The notes under the pieces were generated by a model, which was not told where the DNA came from, did not search any database, and saw only the letters and a program-made list of their open reading frames with translations. Position numbers and translations under genes: made by a program. Positions 3,300 to 55,794 of a stretch of 64,000 bases of DNA are shown piece by piece. This DNA comes from Posidonia oceanica (Eukaryota > Streptophyta > Magnoliopsida > Alismatales > Posidoniaceae), in contig JAZBRS010000020.1 in NCBI GenBank assembly GCA_037176725.1, positions 84,700,001-84,764,000 on the forward strand. The letters run 5' to 3'. Numbering within the stretch: position 1 is the first letter of the stretch; every line of letters begins with the position of its first letter.

Positions 3300-3420
3300 T
3301 TTTGCTTGCTTCCGTTCTGTAAGGAGAGAGAATGTGAGAGAGGGAGAGAGATGGGTTATAGAGAGAGATGGGGGGCGGGTGGCGGAGCGTACGAGGAAAA
3401 GCGTAGCGTGGAGTACTCCG
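3300..3420 (-). promoter_or_regulatory. Putative 5' UTR and core promoter of PDH E1 alpha
   Basis: Directly upstream of the ATG the minus strand is a CT-rich tract, common in plant 5' UTRs. A TATA-like CTATAAC lies at 3356-3362, about 60 nt above the start codon, which would leave a very short leader. The true transcription start could equally lie further upstream, because the reading frame is open to about 3515. No experimental signal is available. Confidence 0.3.
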
Positions 3421-3560
3421 CCGGCGTTGATGGCTGCGGGTGTGGTCGATGGCGACGAGGAAAATCGTAGACAGTAAAATACTGTGTTGTGATGGGCCAC
3501 GTAACTGTAGTACAATGAAGATATGGCTACACACGGGTACGCGGTTGAGTTGAGTCACAG

Positions 3561-5604: not shown

Positions 5605-5879
5605 TGTGACGATGCCAGCGACAGGGGTACGTAGGACCAAAGCTAACGTGTACGTCGATAAAGTCACGGTAGAGTGGTGAATCTGAGGAAAACTCGACTT
5701 GAAAACACCGAATGCGAAAAGCAAATATAGATAAGACAATGGAGTCGCTGTAGATATCCCGTTTTGGTACTCCCCCCAATGCTGAAAATCTCATTACACC
5801 ATAGTGTTCCCGGTTCACCTCTAGAAGACTTCTTTTCAACCCGAATTCTCTCCTTTGAGCTAATTGCAAATCCAGGGTA

Positions 5880-8800
5880 TTGAACGCACATATTTGGGCG
5901 TCCAACATTAGATGCTTGAAATCTAGCGTTCTACATTGAACGCTGGTTACCAAGCGTTCTATGTTGAATGCAATATCAAAACCGTTCTACAATCCAGAAT
6001 TGCTTTTGCCAGATCAGCCCGATTTAGGTCCATCATTATCTCTTAATTTCAGTAATTTGGGTCCCGATAATTTCTTGGCGAAATTTGGCAGGTTGACCGC
6101 CTAGGTTTGTTAAACGCTGGTTTCACAGCGTTCAATATAGAATGTTGAGTTCCTGGCGTTCTATAAAGCCCAGTGCTGACCACAACTGTTTTTATTTAGC
6201 CGAATTCGAAATCCAAATTATTTCTCTTTTTTGAGGCCAGGTGATCAAGTGGATGGCCAATCATGATTCAATCAATATTTACCCACCTTTAATTGCTGAT
6301 TGTCCCCTTAATTTGACAGCTGCACCTCGGTTAGTCGTTGAACGCTTGTATACCAGCGTTCAACGTAGAACGCTTATTTTCAGGCGTTCTACGACGACAA
6401 TTTGTTGGACCAACTTTCCTTCTTTGGACGAAATCCAGAGTTCGAAGTCTTGCCTCCTTTAGAGTTCCATTGCCCAATCAATCACATAATCTGGGAATAA
6501 TCATTGCTAATCAGTCATTAGTAGGGGAATATTTCTTTATTCTAGCAGCTATGCCTCGGGTGGTCGTTGAACGCTTGGATTCCAGCGTTCAACGTTGAAC
6601 GTTGTGGTTTCAAGTGTTCAATATTTCTGAATTGGAAACTTTTTGATACAGCTACCCAATCATGCCTAATTCAAACCAATCCACCATTGTTGTGTCCCCT
6701 CTGCTTCTATAAAAGCAGGGGCACTCCAACCTTGAAAGGGGACCAGAAAATTTTGGAGAAATAAGATTTTGAGCCAAGGAATTGGAAGGGAGGAAAATGG
6801 AGAGGAATTTCTCGAGTTTAGGAGACGGAGAGGTTGTGAAAAACAAGTGAGTGAAAAGAGAGTGTCAGAGAACTTTAGTCTTCTCCCATCTCAAACCACG
6901 CCATGACGACATATTGCATTTCTATAATATCAAAAGGGGGTTTTCTTTTAGTATTTTTTTTGCACCTTGTGTTTTTCATTTCTATTGCATGTCGTAGCTA
7001 GGCATATTCATACTTAGTTGCAACCGGGGAGATAAAACCCCTCGAGTGAGTATTTCTTTGTGTTTATTTTATGTCACTTTTTTTTATTTTCCATGAACCG
7101 TTTACTACACTGTATTAATCCGCGTTTTTAATACTATTTTGCAAGGAAAAGAAAAGGAGAAGAAGAAGCTCACTTTGCACAGGCACCCTTGAGCAACGTT
7201 GGTATTGTCTCAAGGTAGCTGAACCCACATCAACACATCTCCCCAAGGCGTCTTGAGGGCCGGCGAAAGCGAACCGAGAGTAGCAATCACACCGGTTTCA
7301 ACACACGTGGAGTGTTGGGATCGACGAACAAGCAAAAGGAACGTCGAGAAAGCAAAAGAACCGAAAGACGGTTTTTCTCCTCCAAAACCCCATATCCACA
7401 GTCTGACGATCACGGTGGGACGGCTAAAAGTGTCTCCGTGCTAAGGTGAGTTTCCCTACCTATTCTTCTTCTTTCTTTTCTTCCTTGCATCTTTTTTCTT
7501 TTATTTCCATGGGTTTTACGAGTGCGGTAAAATTCCTCATAGCGTTTTGAGGTACCGCAACTCTTGTTTTGTTTTTTTTTTACATTCAAAATACTTGAAA
7601 TCACCTTCCTTTTCTCTGTGATTCTCGGGAGTAGGGGTGGTTAATTAAAAATCACTATTTTTCTGAAAAATTCTCTGTCAGTACGTTAAACGCCTGATTC
7701 TGAGCATTCAACATTGAACGCCCCAGTCTCAGCGTTCAACATTGCTGAACAGAAACTCTTTCTGTTTTGCAAATTTCTTGTTTTCTTTGTTCATAACTGG
7801 CCTGATAGTCGAGGTGTGAGGTGATTGGCATTGCTGTAGGGATTAGAACTTTGATTCTCAGGTGCTTTTCAAAAACAAAAAAAAACAAAAAAAATCGAAC
7901 TTTTTTTTTGTATGACTTGTATGGCCCTTTTTGAGAACTAAATTGTTTGTATCTTTTCTTAGGCTATACAAGTAACTCCTTAGATTCTGAGCACCCCTGT
8001 TGCAAAGAATCTAAGTAAAGTGCTTGTATTGTCACATATTTTTCCAAGAGTCACATTTTTTCCCTTGACTCTTGTAAAAATAAGTTAGAACCCTAAGTTA
8101 AGAATTGCTTTCCCCCCCTTTTCGGTGGTTTGTTGTGGATTGTTTGTGTTTGATACGAAAGAGACTCCAATCAATCCTAAGTACGCTGGGCTCTACCTCT
8201 ACGGGGTAGGGATCTAAGTGTGCTTAGGCTCCCCCTAACATCCTTAGGAGTTGAGATAGGGGGCAGTACCAAGAAGAAACATTTTGCCCTATTGTGAAGA
8301 TCTCTAGACAAATCCCGGAGAAAAGCCATACCCAAGCTTAGGTACCTTGAGAGCCATAAAGGTTAAAACACTAATAATCAAGCATGAACCCAAAAATCCG
8401 ACTGCTAAACATTGTCTGAAAGTGTTATTGTGCAGCTGTCTGACACAGGAGTGTTGAACGTGCAGAAACCTACGTTCAACATTGAACGTTGAACGTCCCA
8501 GGTCACGCGTTCAACACTTTGCTTGATTTATATTTTTAGGTTTTATGGTGAATGACTGCATGTTACAGGACATTTAAACAGGGGTTGACATTCTAGTTTC
8601 CCATTTTTGTTTCATTTCCTAGAAACTTGTATTAGGTTGCCAAAATTTTCTTGTAAATTTTATTTCTTCCAAGTGTACTCTTTGTAATTTACCTCCATTT
8701 ATAGCAAAAAAAAAAAGACCAAAAAAAAGAAAAAGAAAAAAGAAAAAGAGAAATAAAAAGAAAGAAAGAGAGAGAGAAAAAGAAAAGAAAAGAAAAGAAA

Positions 8801-8931
8801 AAAGAGCAAGAAAAAAAAACAAAGGGAAAAGAGGGGGAATATAAAACTGAAATAGTGCTGCTGAGGCCATTGAATGCCTTTGTATCTGCATTCAACATTG
8901 AACGGCTGATCCTCAGCGTTCTACACTTCTG
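5880..8931 (+). repeat. Seven or so paired-hairpin modules of the GTTGAACGC type in E1
   Basis: Modules lie near 5880-5990, 6109-6166, 6337-6393, 6566-6622, 7685-7745, 8452-8517 and 8869-8931. Each is two adjacent inverted repeats of about 28 bp, with arms like GTTGAACGC and GCGTTCAAC around an 8-12 nt loop. The two halves abut as a palindrome such as GCGTTCAACGTTGAACGC. At 6337 and 6566 the first hairpin has the same 10-bp arms GTTGAACGCT/AGCGTTCAAC but loops TGTATACC and TGGATTCC. The last module is repeated in the E1 second copy at 35174-35232. Confidence 0.85.
8705..8850 (+). repeat. A/G-rich low-complexity tract in E1 leader, copy 1
   Basis: About 140 bp of purines (AAAGAAAAAG, AGAGAG and similar) just before gag. 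It is present in slightly altered length at 34999-35145 in the second copy, as expected of slippage. It is not a retrogene poly(A) tail, since gag of the same element follows. Confidence 0.85.
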
Positions 8932-8960
8932 AGGCAGATATCCTCCTTCAAGCTGCTACA

Positions 8961-11315
8961 ATGATGAACCAAATTTCTAAAGCCAACCAGACAAGGCCAG
9001 ATAGAGAAAGCTCAGAGACGGCTAGTGTATCAGGAGAGGAACCTACCCTGATCATTTACCACCCTACCACTGGGGAAGTCCTGGATCCTGACTCAATCCA
9101 GTACAGAGCCATGTATGAGTTCTTAAACAATGATGCACCTACCCCAATGGGGACGTGCCAACATCCAAACACAACCTCCAAGAGCCACCCCCCCTTAGTG
9201 AAAGGTAACGAAGGCTCGCTGCGGACCATATCCCTGACGAACTACACCAAGGACAATTTGGCAACCCACCGTCGGACACGAATCACCAAGGACAAGGTAC
9301 AATGCTCAATGGAGTATACAAAACAAGGGCAAACCCCGTGTTCCAGGAACAACCTCAGTTTCCACATGGCGAGTACTGGGAAAGAGTCAATCCGCTCTAC
9401 GAGCACCAGGAGCCTCTTCTCCAAGCACCGATAGTCGGCAACCAGCCCCTATCGGATTATCATCCCCACCAAGGACCTCTCCCACAACACAAGCCAGTTG
9501 CACCTCGACATTTTGGCAACGACTATCATCAGTAACTCAATTGTCAAGCATCCAACTCACACATCCCAACCCCGGCGGTTGGGATGGCAAATCTAGACGA
9601 GTTGAGGAAATTGCTCAGCGCACTAGGGGTACACACCTAGGCTCTAGCAAACTTTGACATGAGCCGGTTTCCCTCTTTTATACTTCCCCCCGGTTTCAAA
9701 TACCTGAAGAATCCCAAGTTCGATGGAACCACGAACCCACACAGTCATCTTGTGCGGTTCCAGATGAAGTCAGCCCCTTACTTCTATGACTTGGGGCTAG
9801 TTATACATTTATTTTTCTATTCATTAGAGGGCGAACCCATGGACTGGTTCCTCACCCTCTCCAAGGAAGATCTCAGCAGCTTTGACAAAATCCAAGAAAG
9901 CTTCCTTACTAAATACCAGCACAAGATAGATCCTAAGCCAACCTTCCATGACCTAAGAAAAGAGGTTATGAGACAAGGCAAAAGCTGGGTAACCTTCACC
10001 AACGAATGGTGTGAAATGGCGGCCAGATTAGGCCTGACCATTCCAGAAAGAAAAGTGGTCCAGACCCTTATTGCAAATACTACTGGACCGATGAAGAAGG
10101 GACTTATAAATGCTTACTGTCCCAATGTAGCAGCTCTTTATGAAGTGGTCACCTCTATCAAAGAGAATCTGCCTGAATTCATAGAGGAGGCCAAGAAGAG
10201 TAGAAAAACACAAATGGTGGAAGGCGTAATTGGAGCCGTAAACAGAATCAATGCCATGCCTAAGCCACAAGAACAAAGAGCTGTAGTGACTCATGAGCCA
10301 CCACGAAGCCATCCTCCCCAACAGACATGGGCCCATCCTCCCCAGCAAACATGGAGTGCAAACATGGAGCCGTCCTCCTCAGCAACAAACATGGAGCCAT
10401 CCTCCCCAACAATAGTCCTGGAATCATCCCCAGCAGCAGCAAATTCGCCCCCAATTGCAGTAATGGAATGTTCCCAGGCCACAATGGAAAAGGGGCAATC
10501 AGGACAACAATGGTAGATTTTGCAACAACAATGGGAATAGGGGCAATTATCACAATGTTCCTCCCCCACAGCTACTACAACCCAGAGGGTCGAAGTGGGA
10601 TCATTACCCTCTCTACCGGTCACTTTGGCAGACATGTTCATAGAACTAGAGGGTGCAAAGGCAATTGAACTCTCGCCAATCAAGCCAAAAGCTCCAAATA
10701 GTGACTAGAACAAATACTGCCCTTTCCACAGAAGACACGGTCACAACATAGACGACTGCTGGACCTTCAGAGATATAGTCTACGATATGGTGGAGGCAGA
10801 CTTATTTGAATGGGATGTCCTGGTTGAAAGAGCCAAGCAGCGGGGGCAAACAGGGGCACACCAACAAATTTACAATAATCCCCTCCCTAATCATAAAATA
10901 ATGGCATTCAAGGATGATGAAGTCCCCATGGCTCAGGACCTACCCGTAGAAGAGCCTCAACAACCTGGAGAGGAATGGGGGACCATCTCGGACGATGACT
11001 GGGATAGCCAAGCAGAGGGCGAGGAAGTAATCTCAGATGATGATTGGAACAGTGAGGAAGAGGAAGAGCAAATAATTGAAGAGCTTGGCCTCCTCAACCT
11101 CGTTACGATGGACAAGCTGCAGGATGGCACAAAAAAGGAATGCTCTTTTACCTTAGCTCAAAAAGCCACCAAGCAGTTCGAACAAGAAAATATCGTCTTC
11201 CAAGAATCCGAGCTTCTGCCACCGTCTGACCAAGAACTACCACTCATCATCACAGTAGGCATTAATGATTGTGTATTGCAAGGAGTGCTAGTTGACACTG
11301 GAGCAAGCCGATGCC
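8961..11315 (+). pseudogene. E1 gag-protease 1, decayed, copy 1
   Basis: Degenerate gag of a Tat-type element. It opens MMNQISKANQ at 8961; the frame shifts around 9200, after which gag continues in another frame. 9659-10516 is the capsid-like core (DGTTNPHSHLVRF, ending near NLPEFIEEAKKSRK). A zinc knuckle of form C-x2-H-x4-H-x4-C lies at about 10717-10755. An acidic stretch (SDDDWDSQAEGEE, SDDDWNSEEEEE) follows. The aspartic protease triplet context DTGAS is at 11294-11308, cut seven bases later by the E2 LTR. Internal stops are mostly TAG. Encapsidation and polyprotein processing were its roles; it is not functional now. Confidence 0.85.
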
Positions 11316-11493
11316 TGTAGACACCCCATTTTGACTGCTTGGAAGATGGTGGATGCTCCTACAAGCTCGCTCGACCTCTGGGATGGCTCTCTCTCTAAAA
11401 CCCACCTAAACCCATCCTAAAACATCACCAAACCTCTACTCAAACCTTAACCCAAACCAAAATACCAAAAAACAGCCTTTAACCAACCCTGGG

Positions 11494-13782
11494 ATGTTAG
11501 ACGCTGGCTGTGCCAACGTAGCGTCCAACGTTGGACATAATGCATGCTGATGTCCAATGTGTTGGCCGTAGCAGCCCTTTGGCTCACCCTCCGCCGTGCC
11601 CAGAGCCGCCCTCTGCCAGCTCTGCTGCTCCCCTCGGACCGCCTAGCCACTTAGCTCGCTCCCGGAGTCGGTGCCTCACCCGGGTGCCGCCCGTACAGCG
11701 CCACCTGCCCCACTTTCCCGCCGCACGTTCGTTTGGACGTTTCCGGCCGGCCTCTGCCAACTTGCTTCGCGCCGCGCACGCCACCTCTTCACCTACCATG
11801 GCAGTCTCCCAGAGCCTGCTCCTGTGCACCCCACCTCTGGCCACCAACCCCGCCGCATGCTCCTGCCAACCCTGCCAGCCTCTGCAACTCCACTACCGTT
11901 GCCAACCGAACCCAACAAAACATAGCACCTCACCAATTCCCATAGTGCACCACACCTATCGTCTTGAGAATCCAGAGCTTCGAGAGCCTTGAGTGAACTC
12001 CCACGAACATTCCTGAGCCCTCAGCCAAGTTCCTCGGCCTCCCCTTCGCGTCCAGGAGCTTGCCGGAGTCAGCCTGCCACCTCCTTCCGCGTCGACCGGC
12101 CAAGTGCAGACACGCCATCTGCGCCGCAACCAGGTAGGCCTTTCATCACCCCACGCTAGCACATGCATGTGGTAGTGTAGCTAGGTAGTTTTCACGTTGT
12201 CTAGCACAGCACACATGCCCCCTCGCCTTGGCTTTCCAGCCGCGAGGAGGGGGAGGTGGGTGGAGCAATCCACCCACTTATTTTTGGCATCGAGCACATG
12301 GACATGCTCGTTGTCACTCACTCTTGCTTCCTAGCAAGTTAGTTAGGGATTTTTGGCCACTAATCTTGATCGGGAAACTTCCCGACCTATTGGACGCACA
12401 TGCTGGTGCGTCCAACGTTGGACATGCCCTGAGGCAGCATCCAACAACTCTACAGATCTTTATTTTGTTTTGCTTACTTTTGTTTCCAAGTTGTTATGCT
12501 TTGGTTGCATCTTTGTAAGATTACTCTACAAGCTTCCCTTAATACTTACAGATGTTATGGCATATTTTACATTAAGCTTTGATCCTAGTTTGGATCCATA
12601 TTTCATGCTTCAGTTCGGAATGCTGTTTGCCTGTGTTGGACACTGGAACACACTACGTCCAACGTTGGACGCCGGTGTGTCCAGTGTCCTACTTATCTGT
12701 GTGTTTGCACTTACTGCCATGCATGAATACTGCTTCCTTTTGAGTTATATACTTGCTCCATGTTTGTGTAGTGGTGTTTGGCCTCCTTGGCAACTATGTT
12801 TAAGTTTGCAAGCTCCCTTTCAAGTTGCATGTTGGTTTACATGGGTTCTTGTTCCCTTTTTCCCCTTATGCATGCTTCTTAAGATGTTCTACATGGAATG
12901 CTTGCTTAATCTACGTTGCATGCTTTGGTTTAGTCTGCTTTCTATAGCTTGCATGCATGTTTAAGTGGTTTCTAAGTTCAGTTCCTCCTTGCAGATTATT
13001 TTGCATCTTTTATGTGTTGGACGCAGAGTGTACTTGCGTCCTATGTTGGACGTAGATGTAGTCTGCGTCCTACGTTTCTGCTTAACTGCTCTTGCCATGA
13101 TGCTTGCATGATGTTATTATCCTTTGAGTTCACTTGCTCCATGCTTGCATGTTTGTGCTTTGCCTTTTTAGCAACTGTTCCCAACTTTGTTTGGCCTTTT
13201 ATCAGGGATTTATGCAGGTTCCATCAGGTTTGTGCCTTCCTTTGTGTTGGACGCAAGTAGTGCTGGCATCCTACATAGGACGCAGGTGATGCCTGTGTCC
13301 TACACACTGGTTGTGTTTTCTTTGTGCATGCTTTGTAGATGCCTTCCCTTTTGGATTTTTTTACTTGATCTATGTATGCATGCTTAGCCTATACCTGTTT
13401 ACAGCAGCTTAAATGCATGCCTCTATGATTTTTCTATCAGTTTGTATGCCTTTTTGCTATGCATCTGTTTGCAGAGTGTTGGACGCAGAGTGCTCCAGCG
13501 TCTTATGTTGGACGTTGTGTACTCTAGCATCCAACACCCTGCAGTGTTTAAACCCTGTTCCATGCTTGCCTTGCCATTAAATATTTCCTCTGGCTATTTA
13601 CCTTGATTGGTTTGCCTGATATGCATGCCATCCACTGCCTTGCTGCATTTGCATCGCATCCAGACATCTAGAATGCACGGTTTTCTAGATTGCATGTTTT
13701 CTGCTGTCTTCCTCCTGTCTGTGTTGGACGCTATCTACTCCTGCGTCCAACATTGGACGCAGGTCATAGCTGCGTCCAACAC
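11494..13782 (+). repeat. Seven paired-hairpin modules of the GTTGGACGC type in LTR A (E2)
   Basis: Modules at about 11494-11569, 12389-12446, 12634-12692, 13016-13075, 13245-13304, 13478-13536 and 13722-13782. Each is two consecutive hairpins with arms GTTGGACGC and GCGTCCAAC and 9-12 nt loops of changing sequence, joined at a palindromic centre (GCGTCCAACGTTGGACGC in the best cases). Starts are spaced 245, 382, 229, 233 and 244 bp apart for the last six. Corresponding modules occur in both solo LTRs. Confidence 0.9.
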
Positions 13783-14514
13783 TTACAGTTGGCTGAATCC
13801 AGTTTTTAAGTGCCGATTTTGTTTTGGCCGCCGTTTTCCACATTTTATCGCTTCGGACACATGCTTTGACACGCGTGCATGCTGCCAGACCCCTATTTTG
13901 GTTTTGCGCCTTGCATCGCCCGTTCCCATGGTTTTTCACATCGGTTTCCTCTCTCCTTTGCTTGTTTTACGCTTGCATCGTGTAGTTTTATTTGGCTTTT
14001 CCGCCCTTGTTTGCTTGCCCCTTTGCATGTCGATTTGCATTGTGTGGTTTTATCGGTATTTTATTTTATCACCTGCATTTGCATTAGGGCAGTGATGCTT
14101 ACTGTTTGGAGTTCTCACGAACCAGGGTTTGTCGATTCAGAACACAGGCAACGCTGCTGAGCACATAGGCTGCACGTTTAATTTTCCATACATGGCATTC
14201 AGGCATTTAGGCATTAAAGCATACATAGCATGGCATAGCATTCATCGCCCCTTGGTCGTACAGCTAAAGGCAATCATTGCTGAAATTCCTGCAAATGCGA
14301 GCGATTAGCCAAGAAAGACCGATTCCTCAGGCGTGTCGGGGGTGCGTAATACCTTTCCCGCACGTAATAGGAGTCCTTACCCTTTCTCTAGCCCGTAGTG
14401 ACCATTTTGCCCTCGTCCTTGGCACGAGTCAATCATTTTGCTTAGCATTGCATTCATTTGCGTGTTCTCTTACATTCCCTCGATTTTCCTCGTCTTTCGA
14501 TTTAATAGACTAGG

Positions 14515-14525
14515 TGGCGACTCTG
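14515..14525 (+). other. PBS-like core embedded inside LTR A
   Basis: TGGCGACTCTG here is identical to the first 11 nt of the true PBS at 14694. It lies 162 bp inside the LTR end. The same 11-mer is at 40384-40394 (solo LTR) and 31850-31860 (LTR B). A diverged version lies near 48396-48406 on the minus strand. Confidence 0.8.
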
Positions 14526-14693
14526 TTTTGTTTTATCTCCTTGTTTTCTTCGCGTTTTCCTGGTGTTTTCAAGTCGAGTTTTCTCCTTGGATTCATTGCT
14601 GGCCGCGGCTTCCCCCCTCTCACGGCACGATCGCATGCGAGCTATGGCAGTGCGCGAGACCCGCCGTGGCCGAGCGGGACGGTCATAGGAAAG

Positions 14694-22720: not shown

Positions 22721-22740
22721 GACATTCTATTCGCCATGGA

Positions 22741-26006: not shown

Positions 26007-29000
26007 TGTAGACACCCCATTTTGACAAGTTGAATCAGTGGAATCCTTCTGGTGGCTTCTAAACCTTAACCTAAATCCAAAATCACACCCTTCTTTTCAA
26101 ACCAAAACTCTAAATCAAACCCAAAACCAAACCCAGAACTACATCCATTTTCTAACCCAAAAAACCACCCAAAAACAATAGGAAAATCCATCCTTTCCAA
26201 CCTAGAAAACCCTCCAAAAAAACCCTTAAATCTCCCACCAGAACCACTCCCAGAAACCCTAGAAAACCTAGGTAAAACTACCCTTTTTCTACACCCAAAA
26301 TCCTTCCAAAAACCTTCCAAAATCCCACTTCAAACCCTAGGTTAAACACTAGAAACCCTAGGTCACACACTCACCCAATCCCACTTCAATTCCAAGCCTT
26401 TATCCTCCCCATCTCTCCAAACTATCTTTTTCTCTCTTCAAAATTATCCTTTTCTCTCTCCTCTCTATTCTCTCTCTTATTCTCCTTCTTTTCCTCTCCT
26501 TCTTCCTTCTATTCTTGCTTTCCAGTGGGCCCACCTTGTGCTTCTCTCCTCCCTTTATTTTATCTGTATTTTTATCTTATTTTTATTTTATCTCTTGATT
26601 TTCTAATATTTAATTTCTTTCCTCCCCTCTCTTTCTTTCTTTCTTTCTCCATTTCTTTCTTTTCTTCTTCCTCTCCTTTTCCTCTCTTCCACACTAAACC
26701 TTTAAAACTCTAATTAGAAAAAAAAAGGGAAAGCAAAAGAGAAACAAATCAAAGCCTTAAGAAATAATTAAAAAACTTGAACAAACAATTAAAAGAAAAA
26801 TCCAACTAAAAGCAACTAAAAACTAAGAATGCAATCGAACAAATATAAAACAAACAAGAGGAAAATACTATTAAAAACAAACAAAAGAAAAATATAACCA
26901 AAACAAACAAAAAGAAAGAACCCTATTAAAAATAACAACAAATCAAAAGCAAATCCTAAGAAAGAAGAAACAATTAAAAAACCCTAGGATAAGTAATTAA
27001 AAATCAATTAACAAATCTAAAGAAACAATTAAAACTTAAAACAATTTAAAAGACCTAATTAAAAAGAAAAGAGAGGAAAAAACTTAACAAGAAAAACTTA
27101 ACTTAAAAATAATTAAAAAACTTAACAAACATTTAAAACAAACTTAAAAAACAATTTAAAGAAAAACTTAAGAAAAAATCATAAAAACTTAAAACAAAAC
27201 TAAAACCCCTCCTCACCCTAATTAATTAATTAAAAAACAATCCTTTAAAACCTATTTAAAAATCTCAACCTAAAAACAATTACTCTAAATATTTCCAAAT
27301 TCTTTTTTTTATTTTATTCCAATCTTTTTCCTTTTTCTTCTTTCTTTCTCCTTTCTTTCTCTTTCTTCTTTTTCTTTTTTCTTTTCTTACCTCTTTATCT
27401 GGCCCGGCCCACTGCCTTCTCCCCTCCTTTCTTTCCTTTCTTTTTTTCTTTCTTTTTCCCGCAGCTTCAGCCCAGCCCACCTGACCCGGTCCTCCTCCTT
27501 CCCTTCCTTCTTCTTCTTCCTTCTGTTTTTTTTCTTTCTCCTGCGAACTCCACCTGCAATAGCTTCCCCCTTCCGGTTTTCAAATTCAATTCTCCCCCTC
27601 CATCGCATCCGCCAACAGCACCCTCTGCTCTCACACCCTCTCTCAGCTTTCCCATCCTCCTCTTTGGCGACATTAATCGTGCGTCGCCTCGCCGGTCTCC
27701 CCTCAGCTCCAGTTCCCCCCGCGCCTGTGGAATTTGAAATCCACTGCTCGTGCTTGTCCCCAGCCAGCCTCTGATAAAACCAGCACCCTCAGCATTCCTC
27801 CACCACCTTTTTTGCCAGCTGAGAGAGAATCAGAGAGAGCGTGAGAGCCCAGAATTTCCCTTCCTCCTCCTCTGAAAAATCCCAGCATCTTCCTTCCCCT
27901 GAACCAGACCCCCTCAAGCCTCCAAACTTCAGCAAATCCTTCCCCAACCACACCCGAAATCCCAGCATCCACCTCCACTCTTCCACGCCCAGCTTCAACC
28001 CAAACTCCACCCAAAACACCTGAACCTCCTCCACAGAACCCAACTCCCTTCCACCCAGAATTTCCCGCACCACAGACCCCAGAACCAACCCAAACTTCTC
28101 CCCAGAACTCACCTGAACTCCACCTTTCCAGACCTCCCAAGCTTCAATCCACTCACTCACCACAACCCGAACGCCCCACCACAAACACCTACTCCAGTTT
28201 TTGCCCGAAATCCACCTAGCCAGCAAACTCCCTCCACAGCCTTCCTCCGTGCAATTCAAACCCCTCCTCACCTTCACTGGACCTCCAACAACCTGCCAGA
28301 AGCCTCCACTCAGCCTGGGGAGCCATAGTTCGCCTCCCCCACCTCCGGCAGAACCTGCAACACCCAAAAAATCGCATCCCCTTCCTCCGGCCCGCAAGCT
28401 TGCACCTATGCATCCAGGAAGCTCTAGAGCATCGCCAAGAGTGGAACCAAACCCTCGTGAGCCACCGAGAATGCCTTCAGCAGCTGGACCGTCATCACCG
28501 ACCTCTGCTCAGACCACTGACGTCAGGGGAGCGCACCGGCCACTGAAAAAGGTACCTGTCTTCACCCGTAGTCTAGTTTTCTTTTCCTCTTGCTCCTTAG
28601 CCCATTAGAATAGGGTTTCGGGGTCTGTCGCGCGAAGTCGTTGCTGCCGAGGACCCTTCTTCTTCGGCGAGCCTTCTGCACGTAGACTTCGCTCCGGGCG
28701 TCCGCATGCCTCGCTGTCGATCCTCCGAGCTTCGTGGAGGTTCCAAGAGTCCGTTTCTGCCCTCCATTTCCGCCTGGGATGCCTCCAACCTCCGGTCTGC
28801 TCCCAGAACCTTTGTAGAGCTCCGCCGCCTCCTCCGGTCTGCTCCAAGCTCCGTCACACCTAGCCGACCTGCCTCCGACCTCCAGGGACCTCCGGCGCAG
28901 CTCGCTAGCCCTCCAGCGCCGTCCGACCGCGTCATCTTCTCTGGCCAGAAGCCTGCAACCATTTTGCTACAATGTTTTTATTATTATAATGCCGTACGTT

Positions 29001-29199
29001 TGCTTTGCGTTTTATTTTTCTTTAACTTATGAATTTTACCATGATATTGCATTTCTGCCTTGTAGTTTATTTTATTTGCTTTCCAGTCCAGCCACGGTTT
29101 AAGTTTCATTTAATCCTGAATAAAAATCATATAAAATTGCATAAAAAATATGTAGTTTCCTTTATGTGCATGTTAGTCTTACTGTAATTCAAAGCTTTA

Positions 29200-30125
29200 T
29201 ATTTTCTTTTAGTTTTAGTCCTGTTAGTTATTTTTATTGCAACTTGGTCCTCTGCAGTTCACAGCATTTTATTTTTATTTAGTTTCAGCCCAGATATTTA
29301 TTTTTATTGCATGTTGATCCTGCTGTAGTTTAAATTACTTTTCTGTTTCTTAATTTCTAGCCCAGTAGCTTATTTATTTTGCATCTAGGTCCTTCAGTTG
29401 ATAAATGTCATTTAAAAGTCTGTTTTTACTTTATTACATTGCTCTTTAATCCCTCTGTTTATTTTATTTGCAGATCAGTCCTCTGTTTAGTTGTTAAATT
29501 CATTTAATTTCTTATTTTACCATATTGCATTGCACTTTTATCCTGTTTTATTTTATTTTTGCTATTTAGTTCTCTACATGCATGCACAGCATCATTTAAT
29601 TGCATTTTTCCATACTAAATTACATTTTAGCCCCTGCATGTTTTCAAATTACATTTTAGTCCTCTGCATGCATGCACAGCATCATTTAATTGCATTTTTT
29701 CCATATTAAATTGTATTTTAGCCCCTGCATGTTTTAAAATTGCACTTTAGTCCACTGTTTGCATGCACAACATTCATTTATTTGCATTTTTCCATATTGC
29801 ATTGCATTTCAGACTTTGCATTTCTTTGCATTTGCATTTAGGTCTTTAATTCATTCAGATTTCATTTAATCCATCTTAAAACCTTATTGCATTATCAAAA
29901 AATCCAGAAACTTGTTTTATTTGCATCTAGACCCTCAGGTTTTCAAAAATATTGCATTTAGGTCCCTAGGCTTTCAAAAACTTTGCATTTAGGTCCCTTA
30001 TTTTGCATTTGTTTGCATCCAGGTCCCTAACTTTTTAAAATCATTACATATAGGTCCCTCAGGTTTTCAAAAACATTGCATTTAGGTCCCTAACTTTTCA
30101 AAATCATCACACTTAGGTCCTTTTT
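29200..30125 (+). repeat. Decaying array of a GCATTTAGGTCCCT-type word
   Basis: Words of the type TTGCATTTAGGTCCCT recur about every 35-60 bp. They are clear at 29930-30125 (with CTTTTCAAAATCAT-like spacers) and increasingly degenerate upstream (CATTTTAGTCCTCTGCATG, twice near 29630 and 29660). Such a gradient suggests repeated local duplication within the LTR body. Confidence 0.65.
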
Positions 30126-30559
30126 TGCATTTTTGCATGCATTGCACCCATGCATCACTGCACTTAGCATTTTTGCACACTTTTAAGCACTTTTAGCTCC
30201 CATGTATGTGGGAGGATCTATTCTGCACACCCCTAGGACCTCTTTTACACTTAGATCCCTTCTCTTCCCTTGGCCCTTGGGCCTTCTACCTTGAAGCCTG
30301 GATATCTTCTGATCGGATCGTCGGATCTTCGCAACCAAGTTACCTGGATCACCCCGGTAGAGCAGACTTAATGCTGACCAAGTTTGTTTCTGATCAGGCC
30401 TCAGATCTCCAAAGTAAGTCCTTCTGAACTCCTGCATAGCACCTTAGCTGCATATCATTTGCATTGCATGCATTGTTTTTGCGCTGCATTTTTCCATGCA
30501 TGTAGATTAGGACTTCCTCTTCTTGCCTATCCATTCTACTCCCTCCTTTCGTGTACTCT

Positions 30560-30712
30560 TAGTGTTTTTGAGTTGAGTTCTCCTTGGATTCACTATTAAT
30601 TGCGACCTTCTTTCCCATTTTCCACGATCCGATTGCATCGCGAGCTTTTGGCAGTGTGCAAGACACATCGTAGGACGGTTTAGTGGGAAACAGTCACAGA
30701 ATAGTGGTGATC
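30560..30712 (+). repeat. Extra LTR-terminus-like block inside LTR B
   Basis: TTGAGTTGAGTTCTCCTTGG, then GCATCGCGAGC, TTTGGCAGTGTGCAAGAC and GACGGTTTAGTGGGAAA, in the same order as the last 130 bp of LTR A plus its PBS region. It is followed by TAGTGGTGATCC where a PBS would sit. The full-length terminal part occurs again 1.3 kb later. Confidence 0.65.
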
Positions 30713-30884
30713 CCTCCACTTGCTTTCTTTCCCCCTTGTAGGTCTTTACACCTACGTTGCGTGGTCCTTAAGTGGTGTTTGTTCTCACACTTATACCGCT
30801 TGCCTCTCCTTACTTCTCTTACTCTTTCCCTTTGCATGTTTTTACATCTGTATTGCATGGCTTTTACGATATTTTGTTTCGCTT

Positions 30885-31320
30885 GTTTCTTGCACCATTT
30901 TGCGTGCCCGCTTTGTTTCTTGCACCGTTTTGCATGTCCGCTTTGTTTCTTGCACCGTTTTGTGTGCCCGCTTTGTTTCTTGCACCGTTTTACGTGCCCA
31001 CTTTGTTTCTTGCACCGTTTTACGTGCCCACTTTGTTTCTTGCACCGTTTTGCGTGCCCACTTTGTTTCTTGCACCGTTTTGCGTGCCAGCATCTGTTTT
31101 CGCATTATTTTGCACGCCCGTATCTGTTTTTGCTCATTTTCGTGCTGATTTGCGTGTCCGCATTTGTCTTCACTTGTTTTCGCACCATTTTGAGTGCCTG
31201 CTTTGTTTCTTGCACTGTTTTGCGTGCCTGCTTCGTTTCTTGCATCGTTTTGCGTGCCTGCTTTGTTTCTTGCATCGTTTTGCACGCCTGCTTTTGTTCC
31301 TTGCACCGTTTTGCGTGTTT
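30885..31320 (+). repeat. 30-bp tandem repeat array in LTR B
   Basis: Unit contains CTTTGTTTCTTGCACCG and TTTTGCGTGCCCG. About seven regular copies lie at 30885-31090, then diverged copies, then four more near 31197-31310. A 10-residue protein periodicity in translation is a by-product of the 30-bp unit. Confidence 0.9.
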
Positions 31321-32233
31321 GACGTTGTTTTCCCTTGCATGTTGCTTGCATTGCCTGGTTTTACCGCTATTTTGTTTTATCGCCTGCATTTGCATTTAGG
31401 GCAGTGATGCTTACTGCCTGGAGTTCTCACGGACCAGGGTTCGCCCGGTTCGGAACACAGACAACGTTGCTGAGCACTTAGATAGCACGTTTAATTCCTT
31501 GCACGCATTCCATCACTTAGAGCACACCTTTGGGCATCTAATTAGGCATTCATGGCACTTAGGCATTCAAAGTATGCATTTCCCTATGTATGCGAGCGTA
31601 AGCCTAGAAAGACCGATTCTTGGGCATGTCGGGGGTGCCTAACACCTTCCCCGCACATAACAAGAGTCCTTGCCCTTTCTCTTGGCCCACAAGGACCATA
31701 TTGCCCTTATCCTAGGCATGAGTCACATCATTTGCACCATTTGCATCCCATTTCTTTTGCATTGCATTGCATTGCATCTTTTGCTTGGTTTTGCGTGTTT
31801 ATTCACGCATTTCCCCGATTTTCCTTGTCTCCCAACTTAATAGACACGGTGGCGACTCTGAATTGTCTTATCTTCTTCTTTTCTTTCCTTTTTTCCCTTT
31901 TTTAAGTGTTTCCGAGTTAAGTCTTCCTTCTCAGACACAGCCGCTAATAGTGAACTTGATTTCGATCGGTGCACGCGAGCTTTGGCAGTGTGCATGGACG
32001 ATTTGAACACCAAGATTACTACAGCAGGCGAAGCCCCCCTTACATAGCCGAATGTGCTTAGATTTTGTGATCTAACTGTTAGCTGTAACCTATGAACTGC
32101 TTTATCAGCTTTTACATGCACATCTATTTCTCTGACAACCAGTATTATGTACCTGTATATGTTCTGGATTGATGAACAGCTTTGACTACAGGTACTCGAA
32201 GAGTCTCCACCAGCTGCTCACATTCTCCCTGCA

Positions 32234-34822: not shown

Positions 34823-37152
34823 ATTTTTCTGTTTTATGGTGAATGACTGCTTGTTACAGGACATTTAAACAAGGGTTGACATTCTAGTTTCCCATTTTTG
34901 TTTCATGTCCAAGAAACTTGTATTAGGTTGCCAAAATTTTCTTGTAAATTTTATTTCTTTCCAAGTGTACTCCTTGTAATTTACTTCCATTTATAGCAAA
35001 AAAAAAGCAAAAAAAAGAAAAAGAAAAAAGAAAAAAGAAAAAAGAAAAAGAGAAATAAAAAAAAAAGAAAGAAAGAAAGAAAGAGAGAAAAAGAAAAGAA
35101 AAGAAAAAATAGCAAGAAAAAAAAACAAAGGGAAAAGAGGGGGAATATAAAACTGAAATAGTGCTGTTGAGGCCATTGAATGCCTTTGTATCTGCGTTCA
35201 ACATTGAACGGCTGATCCTCAACATTCTACACTTCTGAGGCAGATATCCTCCTTCAAGTAGCTACAATGATGAACCAAATTTCTAAAGCCAACCAGACAA
35301 AGCCAGATAGAGAAAGGTCAGAGACGGCTAGTGTATCAGGAGAGGAACCTACCCTGATCATCTACCACCCTACCACTAGGGAAGCCCTGGATCCTGACTC
35401 AATCCAGTACAGAGCCATGTACGAGTTCTTAAACAATGATGCACCTGCCCCAATGGAGACGTGCCAACATCCAAACACAACCTCCAAGAGCCACCACCCT
35501 TAGTGAAAGGAACGAAGGCTCGTTGCGGACCATAACCCTGATGAACTACACCAGGGACAATTTGGCAACCCACCGTCAGACACGAATCACCAAGGGCAAG
35601 GTACAATGCTCAATGGAGTATACAAAACAAGGGCAAACCCTTTGTTCCAGTAACAACCTCAGTTTCCACAAGGCGAGTACCGAGAAAGAGTCAATCCGCT
35701 CTACGAGCACTAGGAGCCTCTTCTCCAAGCACTGATAGTCGGCAACCAGCCCCTACTGGATTATCATCCCCACCAAGGACCTCTCCCACAACACGAGCCA
35801 ATTGCACCTCGACATTTCGGCAACGACTATCATCAGCAACTCAATCGTCAAGCATCCAACTCACACATCCCAACCTCGGCGGTTGGGATGGCAAATCTAG
35901 ACGAGATGAGGAAATTGCTCAGCACACTAAGGGTACACACCTAGGCTCCAGCAAACTTTGACATGAGCCGGTTCCCTCTTTTATACTTCCCCTGGGTTTC
36001 AAATACCTACATGAATTCATAGAGGAGCCCAAGAAGAGCAGAAAAACACAAATGGTGGAAGGTGTAACTGGAGCCGTAAACAGAATCAATGCTGCGCCTA
36101 AGCCACAAGAACAAAGTGCTGTAGTGACTCATGAGCCACCACGAAGCCATCCTCCCCAACAGACATAGGCCCATCCTCCCTAGCAAACATGGAGTGCAAA
36201 CATGGAGCCGTCTTCCTTAGCAACAAACGTGGAGCCATCCTCCCCAACAACAGTCCTGGAATCATCCCCAACAGCAGCAAATCTGCCCCCAATTGCAGTA
36301 GTGGAATGTTCCCAAGCCACAATGGAATAGGGGCAATCAGGACAACAATGGTAGATTTCGCAATAACAATGGGAACATGGGCAATTATCACAATGTTCCT
36401 CCCCAAAGCTACTACCACCTAGAGGGTCGAAGCGGGATCATTACCCTCTCTACTCGTCACTTTGACAGACATGTTCATAGAACTGGAGGGTGCAAAGGCA
36501 ATTGAACTCCCGCCAATCAAGCCAGAACCTCCAAATAGTGACCAGAACAAATACTGCCCTTTCCACAGAAGACATGGTTACAACATAGACAACTGCTGGA
36601 CCTTCAGAGATATAGTCTACGATATGGTGGAGGCAGACTTATTTGAATGGGATGTCTAGGTTGAAAGAGCCAAGCAGCAGGGGCAAACAGGGGCACACCA
36701 ACAAATTTACAATAACCCCCTCCCTAATCATAAAATAATGGCATTCAAGGATGATGAAGTCCCCATGGCTCAGGACCTACCCGTAGAAGAGCCTCAACAA
36801 CCTGGAGAGGAATGGGGGACCATCTTGGACGATGACTAGGATAGCCAAGCAGAGGGAGAGGAAGTAATCTCAGATGATGACTGGGACAACGAGGCAGAGG
36901 AAGAACAAATAATCGAAGAGCTTGGCCTCCTCAACTTCGTCACGATGGACAAGCTGCAAGATGGCATAGAAAAGGAAAGCTCTTTTACCTTAGTACAAAA
37001 AGCCACCAAGTAGTTCAAACAAGAAAATATCGTCTTCTAAGAATCCGAGCTTCCACCGCCGTTTGACCAAGAACTACCACTCATCACCACAGTAGGCATT
37101 AATGATTGTGTATTGCAAGGAGTGCTAGTTGACACTGGAGCAAGCCGAAGCC
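34823..37152 (+). pseudogene. E1 gag-protease 1, second copy with internal deletion
   Basis: Parallels 8526-11315: the same leader, A/G-rich tract (34999-35145), paired hairpin (35174-35232), MMNQISKANQ start at 35267 and acidic region. The zinc knuckle is at about 36553-36600 (CPFHRRHGYNIDNC) and DTGAS at 37131-37145. About 468 bp of capsid sequence (equivalent to 9706-10173) is missing; the join reads TACCT-ACA-TGAATTC near 36003. Extra TAG stops, for example 36657 and 36837, are absent from copy 1. The two copies differ by several percent by eye. Confidence 0.85.
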
Positions 37153-40100
37153 TGTAGACACCCAATTTTGACTGCCTGGAAGATGGTGGACCCTCCTGCA
37201 AGCTCGCTCGGACTCTGGGATGGCTCTCTCTCTAAAACCCACCTAAATCCATCCTAAAACATCACCAAACCCCTACCCAAAAACCAAAATACCAAAAAAC
37301 AGCCTTTAACCAAACCTGGGATGTTAGATGCTGGCTGTGCCAGCATCCAACGTTGGACGCTACATGTGCTAGCGTCCAACGTTGGACGTAATGCATGCTG
37401 ATGTCCAATGCGTTGGCCACAGCAGCCCTTTGGCTCGCCCTCCGCCAACTCTGCCGCTCCCCTCGGACCGCCCAGCCACTTGGCTCGCTCCCGGAGTCGA
37501 TGCCTCACCTGGGTGCCACCCGTACAGTGCCACCTGCCCCATTTTCCAGCCACACGTTCGTTTAGACGTTTCTGGCCAGCCTCTGCCAACCTGCTCCGTG
37601 TCGTGCACGCCACCTCTTCACCTACCATGGCAGTCTCCCAGAGTCCACTCCCATGCATGCCACCTCTGGCCACCAACCCCGCGGTGTGCTCCTGCCAGCC
37701 CTGCCACCCTCAGCAACTCCACTGCTGTTGCCAACCGAACCCAACAAAACACAACACTTCACCAATTTCCACAGTGCACCACACCTATCATCTTGAGAAT
37801 CCAGAGCTTCGAGAGCCTCGAGTGAACTCCCACGAACCTTCCCGAGCCCTTAGCCAAGTTCCCCGGCCTCCCCTTCGCGTCCAGGAGCTCGCCGGATTCA
37901 GCCCGCCGCCTCCTTCCCCGTCGACCGACCAAGTGCAGACACACCATCTGAGCTACAACTAGGTAGGCCTTTTGTCACCCCAAGCTAGCACATGCATGTG
38001 GTAGTGTAGTTAGGTAGTTTTCATGTGGTCTAGTACAGCACACACGCCCCCTCACCTTGGCTTTCCAGCAGTGAGGAGGAGGAGGTGGGTGGAGCAATCC
38101 ACCCACCTATTTTTGGCACCGAGCACATGGACATGCTCGTTGTCACTCACTCTTGCTTCTTAGCAAGTTAGTTTGGGATTTTTGGCCACTTTGGCCACTG
38201 ATCTTGGCCAGAAAACTACCCGACCTGTTGGACGCATATGCTAGTGCGTCCAACATTGGACGTGCCCTGAGGCAGCGTCCAACAACTCTGCAGGTCTTTA
38301 TTTTGTTTTGCTTACTTTTGTTTCCAAGTTGTTATGCTTTGGTTGCATCTTTGTAAGATTACTCTACATGCTTCCCTTAATATTTACAGATGTTATGGCA
38401 TATTTTACATTAAGCTTTGATCCTAGTTTCGATCCATATTTCATACTTCAGTTCGGAATGCTGTTTGCCTGTGTTGGACGCTGGAACACACTGCGTCCAA
38501 CGTTGGACGTTGGTGTGTCCAGCGTCCTACTTATCTGTGTGTTTGCACTTACTGCCATGCATGAATACTACTTCCTTTTGAGTTATATACTTGCTCCATG
38601 TTTGTGTAGTGGTGTTTGGCCTCCTTGGCAGCTATGTTTAAGTTTGCAAGCTCTCTTTCAAGTTGCATGTTGGTTTACATGGGTTCTTGTTCCCTTTTTC
38701 CCCTTATGCATGCTTCTTAAGATGTTCTACATGGAATGCTTGCTTAATCTACGTTGCATGCTTTGGTTTAGTCTGCTTTCTATAGCTTGCATGCATGTTT
38801 AAGTGGTTTCTAAGTTCAGTTCCTCCTTGCAGATTATTTTGCATCTTTTATGTGTTGGACGCAGAGTGTACCTGCGTCCTATGTTGGACGTAGATGTAGT
38901 CTGCGTCCTACGTTTCTGCTTAACTGCTCTTGCCATGATGCTTGCATGATGTTATTATCCTTTGAGTTCACTTGCTCCATGCTTGCATGTTTGTGCTTTG
39001 CCTTTTTAGCAACTGTTCCCAAGTTTGTTTGGCCTTTTATTAGGGATTTATGCAGGTTCCTTCAGGTTTGTGCCTTCCTTTGTGTTGGATGCAAGTAGTG
39101 CTGGCGTCCTACATAGGATGTAGGTGATGCTTGCGTCCTACACACTGGTTGTGTTTTCTTTGTGCATGCTTTGTAGATGCCTTCCCTTTTGGATTTTTTT
39201 ACTTGATCTATGTATGCATGCTTAGCCTATACCTGTTTACAGTAGCTTAAATGCATGCCTCTATGATTTTTCTATCAGTTTGTATGCCTTTTTGATATGC
39301 GTCTGTTTGCAGAGTGTTGGACGCAGAGTGCTCTAGCATCCTATGTTGGACGCTGTGTACTCTAGCATCCTATGTTGGACGCTGTGTACTCTAGCGTCCA
39401 ACACCCTACAGTGTTTAAACCTAGTTCCATGCTTGCCTTGCCATTAAATATTTCCTCTAGCTATTTACCTTGATTGGTTTGCCTGATATGCATGCCATCC
39501 ACTGCCTTGCTGCATTTGCATCGCATCCATACATCTAGAATGTAAGGTTTTCCAGATTGCATATTTTCTGCTGTCTTCCTCCTGTCTGTGTTGGACGCTG
39601 TCTACTCCTACGTCCAACATTGGACGCAGGTCATAGCTGCGTCCAACACTTACAGTTGGCTGAATCTAGTTTTTAAACGCTGATTTTGTTTTGGCCGTCG
39701 TTTCCACATTTTATCGCTTACGACACATGCTTTGACACCCGTGCATGCTGCCAGACCCCTATTTTGGTTTTGCACCTTGCATCGCCTGTTTTCCCGTGGT
39801 TTTCCACGTCGGTTTCCTCTCCCCTTTGCTTGTTTTACGCTTGCATCGTGTAGTTTTACTTGGCTTTTCTGCCCTTGTTTGCTTTCCTCTTTGCATGTCG
39901 ACTTGCATTGCGTGGTTTTATCGGTGTTTTGTTTTATCGCCTGCATTTGCATTAGGGCAGTGATGCTTACTGTCTGGAGTTCTCACGAACTAGGGTTCAC
40001 CCGGTTCGGAACACAGGCAGTGCTGCTGAGCACATAGGCTGCATGTTTAATTTTCCATGCATGGCATTCAGGCATTTAGGCATTAAAGCATACATAGCAT

Positions 40101-40559
40101 GGCATAGCATTCATCGCCCCCTGGGCGTACAGCTAAAGGCAATCATTGCCGAAATTCCTGCAAATGCGAGCAATTAGCTAAGAAAGACCGATTCCTCGGG
40201 CATGTCGGGGGTGCTTAACACCTTTCCTGCATGTAATAGGAGTCCTTACTCTTTCTATGGCCCGCAGTGACCATTTTGCCCTCGTCCTTGGCACGAGTCA
40301 ATCATTTTGCATAGCATTGCATTCATTTGTGTGTTCTCTTGCATTCCCCCAGTTTTCCTCGTCTTTCGATTTAATAGACTAGGTGGCGACTCTGTTTTGT
40401 CTTATCTCCTTTATTTTCTTCACGTTTTCTCGGTGTTTTCGAGTCGAGTTTTCTCCATGGATTCACTGCTGACTGAGGCTTCCCCCCTCTTTCATGGCAT
40501 GATCGCACGCAAGCTATGGCAACGCACGAGACCCGCCATGGCCGAGCGGGACGGTCACA
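37153..40559 (+). mobile_element. Solo LTR, type A, plus orientation (3,407 bp), TSD AAGCC
   Basis: TGTAGACACCC...GGACGGTCACA flanked by AAGCC at 37148-37152 and 40560-40564. The E1 protease frame runs on directly after removal of the LTR and one TSD, so this is a clean insertion reduced to one LTR. It is colinear with 11316-14687 and has the same seven paired hairpins (37322, 38227, 38472, 38853, 39082, 39316, 39588). The sixth carries one extra half-unit. Confidence 0.92.
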
Positions 40560-47428: not shown

Positions 47429-47432
47429 GAAC

Positions 47433-47444
47433 TGGTATCAGAGC
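47433..47444 (+). other. Primer binding site, initiator tRNA-Met type
   Basis: TGGTATCAGAGC, four bases after LTR 1: the standard 12-nt PBS complementary to plant initiator tRNA-Met. The second unit has TAGTATCGGAGC at 58521-58532, with two mismatches. Confidence 0.92.
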
Positions 47445-47603
47445 CTAGGTTTACTAGGTTGCACTAGCCTAGGAGTGGTCAGTCTAGTGATTACATAGGA
47501 AATTGCATATCATGATTAGGTCTGCACCTGTCGCTTTGGCATATATTATTGTTTGTCTTAATAATTGTGGTGCTGGTTAATGTTGTTTCTCTCCTGTTTC
47601 AGC

Positions 47604-51200: not shown

Positions 51201-51695
51201 AAGTCTGTGACCACGGAGGTGAGCGGAGGTCACGCTGGGGAGGAGATGATGGCTTGGCAGGGTAGTTACTCGCGCTTGGAGGCTAGTGGGTGGCTGTAGT
51301 GGGTTGAGGGGATGGCGAGTAAGTGTGTACGAGCGGTGGAGGGGATGGGAGGTGAGCCAGAGGTGGCGGAGCAGTCGCTGCAATTCCAAGGCCGTTGGAC
51401 GCTGGTGTAGAGCGCGTCCAACGTTAGACGCTACCTGTGCCAGCGTCCAGCACGCCCAGGAGGCCAAAGGCTAAAATGGGCTTGGGCCTTGGCTTAAAAT
51501 GGTTTGAAAAAGGTGTAAAAGGCTTGGGTGATGGTTTTGGGGTTTTAGGTGGGGTTTTAGGGTTGGTTTAGGAATGAGATTTGGTTTTTAGGTCAAAATG
51601 GGTTAATTTTAAATAAAAGAGAGCCATCCCAGAGTCCAAGCAAGCTTTCCAGAGAGGTCGACCATCTTCCAGGCAGTCAAAATGGGGTGTCAACA
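48227..51695 (-). mobile_element. Solo LTR, type A, minus orientation (3,469 bp), TSD GCTGC
   Basis: Complement of LTR A: the left end TGTAGCGATCC is the LTR 3' terminus and the right end ..ATGGGGTGTCAACA is the 5' terminus. It is flanked by GCTGC at 48222-48226 and 51696-51700. Unit B keeps the uninterrupted gag here (59305-59330). Paired hairpins occur at about 49170, 49386, 49618, 49851, 50231, 50476 and 51394. The embedded PBS-like core has decayed (48396-48406). It is younger than chromovirus unit A, into which it is inserted. Confidence 0.92.
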
Positions 51696-51700
51696 GCTGC

Positions 51701-55760: not shown

Positions 55761-55794
55761 TTTCGGAGGCAAAATCCTTTTTAGGTGTTTATGA

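Follow-up and report, generated by a model that had tools for sequence, protein, structure and literature searches.

Two families of long terminal repeat (LTR) retrotransposons in a window of plant DNA (the window being the whole stretch analysed, 64,000 nt, to which the module counts, shuffles and profile searches were confined) carry the same kind of repeated module, made of short arms in alternating orientation. In one, termed E1, the modules lie ahead of a gag-like open reading frame (ORF); in the other they lie within an LTR, termed LTR A, which is present in three copies (A1, A2 and A3). The question raised by this locus is what keeps such modules in two elements whose other sequence does not align. 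On balance, we favour the reading that the modules are arrays of inverted half-sites for a putative sequence-specific DNA-binding protein in the two retrotransposon families. The protein would probably bind as a dimer, a form favoured because dyad, spacing and base-specific constraint would all follow from it. Within this reading we infer that selection acted in the active element, that protein binding was the constraint, and that the arrays have a promoter and intron context.

Half-site modules of E1 and LTR A

The arms read GTTGAACGC in E1 or GTTGGACGC in LTR A, alternate in orientation and are set in units of 28 or 29 bp. An E1 unit (GTTGAACGC, a 10-bp loop and GCGTTCAAC) measures 28 bp in 15 of 16 cases and 29 bp in the remaining one. 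An LTR A unit, with GTTGGACGC arms and an 11-bp loop, measures 29 bp, except that the first unit of module M2 is 28 bp long in all three copies. The units number 61: 16 in E1, two in an E1 duplicate, 13 in A1, 16 in A2 and 14 in A3, excluding a partly deleted A1 unit at 11496 and including the one at 11530. The LTR A copies and the modules are as follows.

11316..14687, + strand: LTR A copy 1 (A1), in E1 coding sequence downstream of gag
37153..40559, + strand: LTR A copy 2 (A2), solo LTR, target duplication AAGCC (5 bp), in the second E1 copy
48227..51695, - strand: LTR A copy 3 (A3), solo LTR, target duplication GCAGC (5 bp)
5879..5990, + strand: E1 module, four 28-bp units (starts 5879, 5907, 5935, 5963)
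6109..6164, + strand: E1 module, two units; also a profile match
6337..6392, + strand: E1 module, two units, 9-bp arms matching perfectly; also a profile match
6566..6622, + strand: E1 module, two units, the second of 29 bp; also a profile match
7685..7740, + strand: E1 leader module, two units; also a profile match
8453..8515, + strand: E1 leader module, two units separated by 7 extra bp; also a profile match
8869..8924, + strand: E1 leader module, two units, duplicated at 35175-35230; also a profile match
35175..35230, + strand: duplicate of E1 module 8869-8924; also a profile match
11496..11558, + strand: A1 M1, partly deleted; also a profile match
12389..12445, + strand: A1 M2; also a profile match
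12635..12692, + strand: A1 M3; also a profile match
13016..13073, + strand: A1 M4; also a profile match
13246..13303, + strand: A1 M5; also a profile match
13478..13535, + strand: A1 M6; also a profile match
13723..13780, + strand: A1 M7; also a profile match
37323 (three units), 38227, 38473, 38854, 39084, 39316 (three units), 39590, + strand: A2 modules
51451, 50534, 50288, 49906, 49676, 49446, 49227, - strand: starts of the two-unit A3 modules

Successive module starts are 230, 228, 229, 1119, 768 and 416 bp apart in E1; 893, 246, 381, 230, 232 and 245 bp apart in A1; 904, 246, 381, 230, 232 and 274 bp apart in A2; and 917, 246, 382, 230, 230 and 219 bp apart in A3. An interval of about 230 bp is thus common to E1 and LTR A (5879-6622, 13016-13780 and 49170-49906), though the spacers do not align.

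The arms share the half-site consensus [G/A]T[T/A]G-R-ACGC, in which R stands for A in E1 and for G in LTR A. Of the 32 E1 arms, 30 have A at this fifth position; all 86 LTR A arms have G there, but because A1 and A2 are near copies not all of the 86 are independent. The one-base difference between the two families is clean, and it reduces the hunt for a putative reading protein to a straightforward binding assay.

An earlier, sequence-only reading of this DNA had described modules of two adjacent hairpins in both elements, with arm types one base apart and no other alignable sequence. The unit counts and window scans bear out the arms, the spacing and the positions, and the fifth position bears out the one-base difference. 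Two units per module are the rule without being fixed: the module at 5879-5990 has four, those at A2 37323 and 39316 have three each, and A1 M1 is partly deleted. The adjacent hairpins themselves are the consensus fold of 19 modules and the minimum-energy fold of 10 of 30 two-unit stretches, the other 20 folding as one nested hairpin. The module at 5880-5990 had been taken to mix both arm types; it does hold an A-type arm at 5898-5906, while the other arm with G at position 5 (at 5907) is degenerate.

The abundance of the modules exceeds chance, as a shuffled-sequence control shows. The window holds 218 inverted repeats with 9-bp arms (loop 6-14, no more than one mismatch), whereas 20 shuffles keeping dinucleotides approximately gave a mean of 74 (range 52-98). 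Starts with a second inverted repeat 27-31 bp further on number 24, five of which lie in an unrelated stretch at 4129-4146, as compared with 0-3 in the shuffles. Half-sites with up to two mismatches occur 334 times, as against 249 (sd 14) in shuffles. When the 64-kb window was scanned on both strands with a sequence-only profile of the module, all 64 matches at E<=1 fell inside the E1, A1, A2 and A3 arrays; the 19 modules from which the profile was built match by construction.

The two families are otherwise dissimilar. BLAST of E1 against LTR A aligned mostly modules, and the matches outside or past them were weak, one covering 109 nt at 64% and two others 35 nt each at E 0.09-0.10, so homology throughout, which could have explained the shared modules, was not seen. 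A profile of LTR A spacers matched no E1 spacer at E<=1000; its positive control, A2, was matched at 2.6e-22 but is not independent, being nearly identical to one of the training rows. We therefore rejected the view that a single homologous region underlies the arrays of E1 and LTR A, there being no spacer similarity in the profile search.

Divergence between copies and position in the elements

Three LTR A copies allow the arms to be compared at two depths. The older pairs are A1/A3 and A2/A3, for which 10 orthologous units of M2, M3, M4, M6 and M7 were used (M1, M5 and the A3 module at 49446 were left out). Arms are identical at 161 of 180 positions in A1/A3 and 166 of 180 in A2/A3 (89-92%), as compared with 703 of 985 positions (71%) in six spacer stretches of A1/A3 (p 6e-8 and 1e-10 for arms versus spacers). 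Loops are identical at 60 and 56 of 109 positions (51-55%), a figure that is biased low, leaving the arm contrast conservative, because loops were compared ungapped and spacers gapped. All 20 arms agree at positions 2, 5 and 6, in A1/A3 and A2/A3 alike. At the gap rate of the spacers about 10 length changes would be expected in the 10 units, but none is seen, and between A2 and A3 21 of 29 CpGs are kept in modules as against 32 of 71 outside (p 0.016).

The A1/A2 pair, which was split by a later duplication and is presumably dead, behaves differently. Over its 13 unit pairs the arms are identical at 215 of 234 positions (91.9%) versus 1393 of 1447 (96.3%) in seven spacer stretches (p 0.005). 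The 19 differences between arms consist of transitions throughout, and 16 fall at positions 7-9, with CpG decay similar in arms (11 of 25) and spacers (3 of 6). At arm positions 1-6, 3 of 156 differ, which is neither faster nor significantly slower than the spacers (p 0.36). The ratio of old to young differences is 14:19 in arms versus 282:54 in spacers (p 4e-7), or 19:19 in arms when A1 replaces A2 (p 7e-6). Since the arms are unprotected in dead copies yet kept between older ones, selection would have acted during the active life of the element, and the arms were probably kept by that selection rather than by copying in place. In-place conversion is disfavoured because it would hold arms alike in dead copies too; it was rejected as an explanation, as the loops are not homogenised and the A1/A2 arms decay. 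The comparison of young with old copies is a simple selection test for arrays of this kind.

The position of the modules in the elements was compared with two candidate signals of E1, both located by pattern match.

6708..6714, + strand: TATA-box-like sequence of E1
7446..7453, + strand: 5' splice-site-like AAG|GTGAGT in the E1 leader

Four E1 modules precede the TATA-like sequence at 6708, three follow the splice-site-like sequence at 7446, and none lies in between. The same patterns also match E1 elsewhere, with a TATA-like sequence at 8840 and weaker splice-site-like sequences at 7552 and 8342. In LTR A the sequence AG|GTAGG is conserved in A1, A2 and A3, with M1 ahead of it and the remaining modules behind, and the DNA that follows it is T-rich and looks like a plant intron. 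The arms are rich in CpG (25 CpG sites at 26 arms versus 6 in 1045 bp of spacer).

These positions suggest how a half-site array might work. Inverted half-sites would lie in non-coding parts of the element, upstream of the promoter and in an intron-like leader, where binding of the protein would keep the LTR active, either by transcriptional activation or by opposing silencing. Tandem duplication lengthens and shortens the arrays, in one-unit steps (29 bp seen) and in blocks of about 230 bp. Four roles had been suggested for the modules in the sequence-only reading, namely RNA structure, a source of hairpin small RNAs, a protein-binding array and a parasite of LTRs, and the protein-binding array is the best supported of them, by base-specific constraint, near-constant spacing, conservation in old copies and decay in the young pair.

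A more specific proposal, which we regard as unlikely, is that a putative protein encoded by the elements themselves reads the dense half-sites and keeps its own family active. The fifth position would then be a specificity switch separating E1 from LTR A, and the whole an independent parallel, among LTR retrotransposons, to the VANC proteins and their targets. No convincing Pfam match to a DNA-binding domain was found in 40 ORF pieces (one of them the host gene); a weak LIM match (E 0.08) lies below its curated cut-off.

RNA pairing, small RNAs and array growth

Could the modules instead be stems in genomic or leader RNA, serving packaging, dimerisation or translation control? We consider this improbable, and the evidence on it is mixed. 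All 10 modules folded are more stable than their shuffles (z -3.4 to -8.6), and double-hairpin pairing fits 89.2% of cells in 19 modules versus 85.8% in shuffles, none of 500 being as high. A string for the nested structure fits the modules at 82.7%, lowered by one pair out of register (columns 9/39). Double changes occur in 19 cells, including columns 32/56 in three of 19 modules, but 12 of the 19 are the single family-wide switch at position 5. Selected pairing should make wobble-keeping changes prevail, yet on the sense strand of E1, A2 and A3 these number 25 versus 21 wobble-breaking ones, and an RNA stem is therefore weakly supported. When right arms were re-dealt among LTR A units, pairing at positions 1-9 was equally good (245 of 270 observed versus 243.9, p 0.37). 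Departures found in one copy alone of A1/A2 include 8 that keep and 11 that break a wobble pair. Single-module folds are split between nested and double hairpins, the loops are poorly conserved, and in E1 four modules precede the TATA-like site. The RNA role suggested earlier thus retains its consensus fold and a signal at positions 10-11 (below), while the wobble counts and the lack of covariation at LTR A positions 1-9 speak against it. RNA stem selection was rejected as the main explanation, the evidence being mostly against it. Rfam gave no match in the window at gathering score, and a tRNA scan of the window found nothing.

A number of results weigh against protein binding to half-site arrays. 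Some concern pairing and favour RNA stems: the RNAalifold consensus of 19 aligned modules is a double hairpin; covariation across both families exceeds all shuffles; E1 pairing at positions 1-9 is borderline (128 of 144 versus 124.2 re-dealt, p 0.03-0.05); LTR A positions 10-11 pair in 42 of 60 cases versus 33.5 re-dealt (p 0.006, one of several ranges tested); and the departures common to A1 and A2, which are older, keep the wobble in 7 cases and break it in 3. Others concern geometry and promoter context. Spacing is imperfect in the 29-bp unit of E1 (1 of 16), in the module at 8453-8515 with its 7 extra bp and in A1 M1, which has lost a part; a pattern scan found no TATA-like sequence in A1 or A2, and that of A3 lies past the splice-site-like sequence. 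The remainder concern the test of old against young copies, which is based on three LTR copies, takes its spacers from different stretches for the two ages, sets CpG-rich arms against CpG-poor spacers, and compares loops without gaps and spacers with them.

Transcripts of the palindromes may also be both source and target of hairpin small RNAs that feed host silencing, as is reported of the Sirevirus clusters of maize. The nested hairpins of 20 of the 30 two-unit stretches, with 16-25 base pairs, would suit this, as would the differences between A1 and A2 arms, which are all transitions and mostly at CGC, the pattern expected of methylated DNA. PMC10760457, citing Bousios et al. 2016, reports that small RNAs are over-represented on the palindrome clusters of Sireviruses, and PMC5311732 agrees as regards small RNAs. 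Feeding silencing would, however, be a cost to the element and would not by itself account for arm conservation between older copies, and we think this explanation quite unlikely.

Lastly, the modules might be a selfish hairpin element or a neutral tandem repeat, without function and spread or homogenised by local copying. Copy differences do point to tandem gain of single 29-bp units and of blocks of about 230 bp. Three units are found at A2 M1 and at A2 M6, two of the M6 units having an identical 11-bp loop, and a weak tandem similarity at an offset of 228-230 indicates that blocks of about 230 bp were duplicated within each family. However, the LTR copies differ by whole units or larger blocks, and no clean insertion of a single module was seen among the few copies compared. 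Loops are not homogenised within an LTR (identity 0.33-0.39 versus 0.52 between orthologues), the A1/A2 arms are unprotected, and the 10 units compared hold their length. This explanation seems to us distinctly doubtful. Of the earlier suggestion of a parasite spreading in LTRs by local copying, the tandem gain of units and blocks therefore stands, while the few copies compared show nothing that would indicate independent mobility.

Module partners were also compared as plain direct or plain inverted copies of one another, and neither relation held throughout. Direct similarity is 0.54 versus 0.39 in A2 (p 0.008) and 0.43 versus 0.34 in E1 (p 0.03); inverted similarity is 0.41 versus 0.33 in A1 and A3 together (p 0.02).

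Neighbouring elements and related systems

The window is plant DNA, because its pyruvate dehydrogenase E1-alpha gene (2128-3564, minus strand) has relatives that are mostly from flowering plants, with a few from other seed plants, among the 120 matches listed. Nested LTR retrotransposons make up much of the window outside this gene. These elements are putatively of the Tat group, the label given to them in the sequence-only reading. Two further features are listed here.

9641..10513, + strand: E1 gag-like ORF (PF03732, E 0.00055, below the curated cut-off)
26007..32023, + strand: LTR B, solo LTR of 6.0 kb, target duplication GCAGG, without a module

The E1 leader lies upstream of the gag-like ORF; the LTR limits of E1 itself were not located in the window, nor was an E1 integrase seen there. 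The E1 gag has five relatives, on short contigs. The end of A1 at 14687 was judged by alignment with A2 and A3, and after it, at 14693, lies a putative site similar to a primer-binding site. Behind A1 follow reverse transcriptase and RNase H matches (21489-22835) and then an integrase (23148-24332), which gives element A the order of gypsy elements. G-patch matches occur upstream of the reverse transcriptase at two places, 19177-19503 behind A1 and 41875-42402 in the second E1 copy. LTR B is identical to LTR A over the first 20 bp and shares about 400 bp with it towards the 3' end; it contains tandem repeats of 30, 31/63, 70 and 91 bp, including a 30-bp minisatellite at 30883-31317.

Positions 8530-9705 and 10174-14685 duplicate parts of 34821-40557 at 92-94% identity; the E1 gag region with LTR A nested inside it is a composite present twice (8530-14685 and 34821-40557). 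Upstream of 8530 and 34821 the two leaders are not alignable, and the duplicate match begins 15 bp past an E1 module. Upstream of the second E1 gag lie a 58-bp tandem repeat (11.6 copies, 34031-34715) and ORF pieces at 32186-33316, a candidate accessory protein, of which 32186-32554 has weak DUF7745 and plant mobile domain matches below the curated cut-offs. Plant mobile domain proteins take part in silencing, according to PMC7156037. A further element occurs in large near-tandem copies across 44711-63990, one of which holds A3 (44711-48226 resembles 55796-59315, and 51696-56405 resembles 59311-63990).

Searches for the module elsewhere returned little. Protein searches confirmed no relative on viral contigs, where the start of the LTR had no match; the A-type paired pattern with its 11-bp loop also had none there, the E1 geometry not being scanned. 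A single-unit pattern matched 18 viral and at least 118 prokaryote stretches, with one site each among the 80 matches listed. A text search with the arm sequence gave nothing on the subject by title among the matches listed, and no such arrays in gypsy elements were found by title or start of abstract among the open-licence papers listed.

The paired layout invites comparison with bacterial interspersed mosaic elements (BIMEs), which are paired inverted palindromes laid out as in the modules. The sequence-only reading had drawn this comparison, and the likeness is one of layout, as it is for the double-hairpin elements reported in mitochondrial DNA. Unlike both of these, the modules give no evidence of mobility in the few copies compared, vary in their single-module folds and sit in another kind of genome.

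According to PMC10760457, the cis-regulatory regions of transposable elements frequently consist of repeat arrays, and the repeats are sometimes palindromic; the maize palindrome CACCGGACNNNGTCCGGTG is reported there in Helitrons too. The Retand elements resemble those here in being gypsy elements with family-specific tandem repeats, and their antisense TRP28 ORF is predicted to bind DNA. Their arrays, however, sit between pol and the 3' LTR, and their LTRs measure 315-1,194 bp versus about 3.4 kb here (PMC11963269). None of the 40 pieces scanned matched TRP28 (PF04195), including the 12 that were antisense pieces of elements; LTR B interrupts the region after pol, and the scan did not extend to every ORF.

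VANDALs, the elements that carry VANC targets, are not LTR retrotransposons. The VANC targets, which serve anti-silencing as binding sites of a protein that the element encodes and that removes methylation, are by analogy the closest system in evolutionary behaviour (PMC5735166, PMC10398659). Like the modules, they are arrays of a nine-base motif in non-coding DNA, introns and upstream regions included, they grow as tandem repeats, and their subfamily motif types (C-type and T-type) are one base apart (PMC5735166). VANC21 motifs all have the same orientation, whereas the arms here alternate (PMC5735166). A Pfam scan of ORF pieces revealed no VANC-like protein.

The nearest known system appears to be the repeated motif (RM) of Sirevirus LTRs, as described in PMC2829016: a palindromic, numerous, CpG-rich and family-specific motif of copia elements. 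It has a CGG-CCG core in 12 of 13 elements, Tnd-1 being the exception, and is presented there as Sirevirus-specific. As in the elements studied here, many short palindromes lie in non-coding LTR DNA, differ in sequence between families and are CpG-rich. The Sirevirus clusters lie upstream of the promoter; here four E1 modules precede a TATA-like site, and a promoter of LTR A was not located by the pattern scan. Sirevirus LTRs are characterised by at least 8 palindromic copies each, and A1, A2 and A3 hold 13, 16 and 14 units. The motifs GTCGGACGTCCGAC of Usier and CACCGGACTGTCCGGTG of OPIE-2 have GGAC/GTCC in common with the LTR A arm. Unlike the Sirevirus motif, the arms GTTGGACGC and GTTGAACGC are without a CGG-CCG core; the half-sites lie 10-11 bp apart in tandem units; neighbouring modules frequently start about 230 bp from one another, and E1 has modules in its leader too; and element A is of gypsy order, whereas Sireviruses are Ty1/copia elements. 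Two further families, at least one of them of gypsy order, thus have a comparable arrangement, built on another core and with a geometry that is nearly constant at 28/29 bp.

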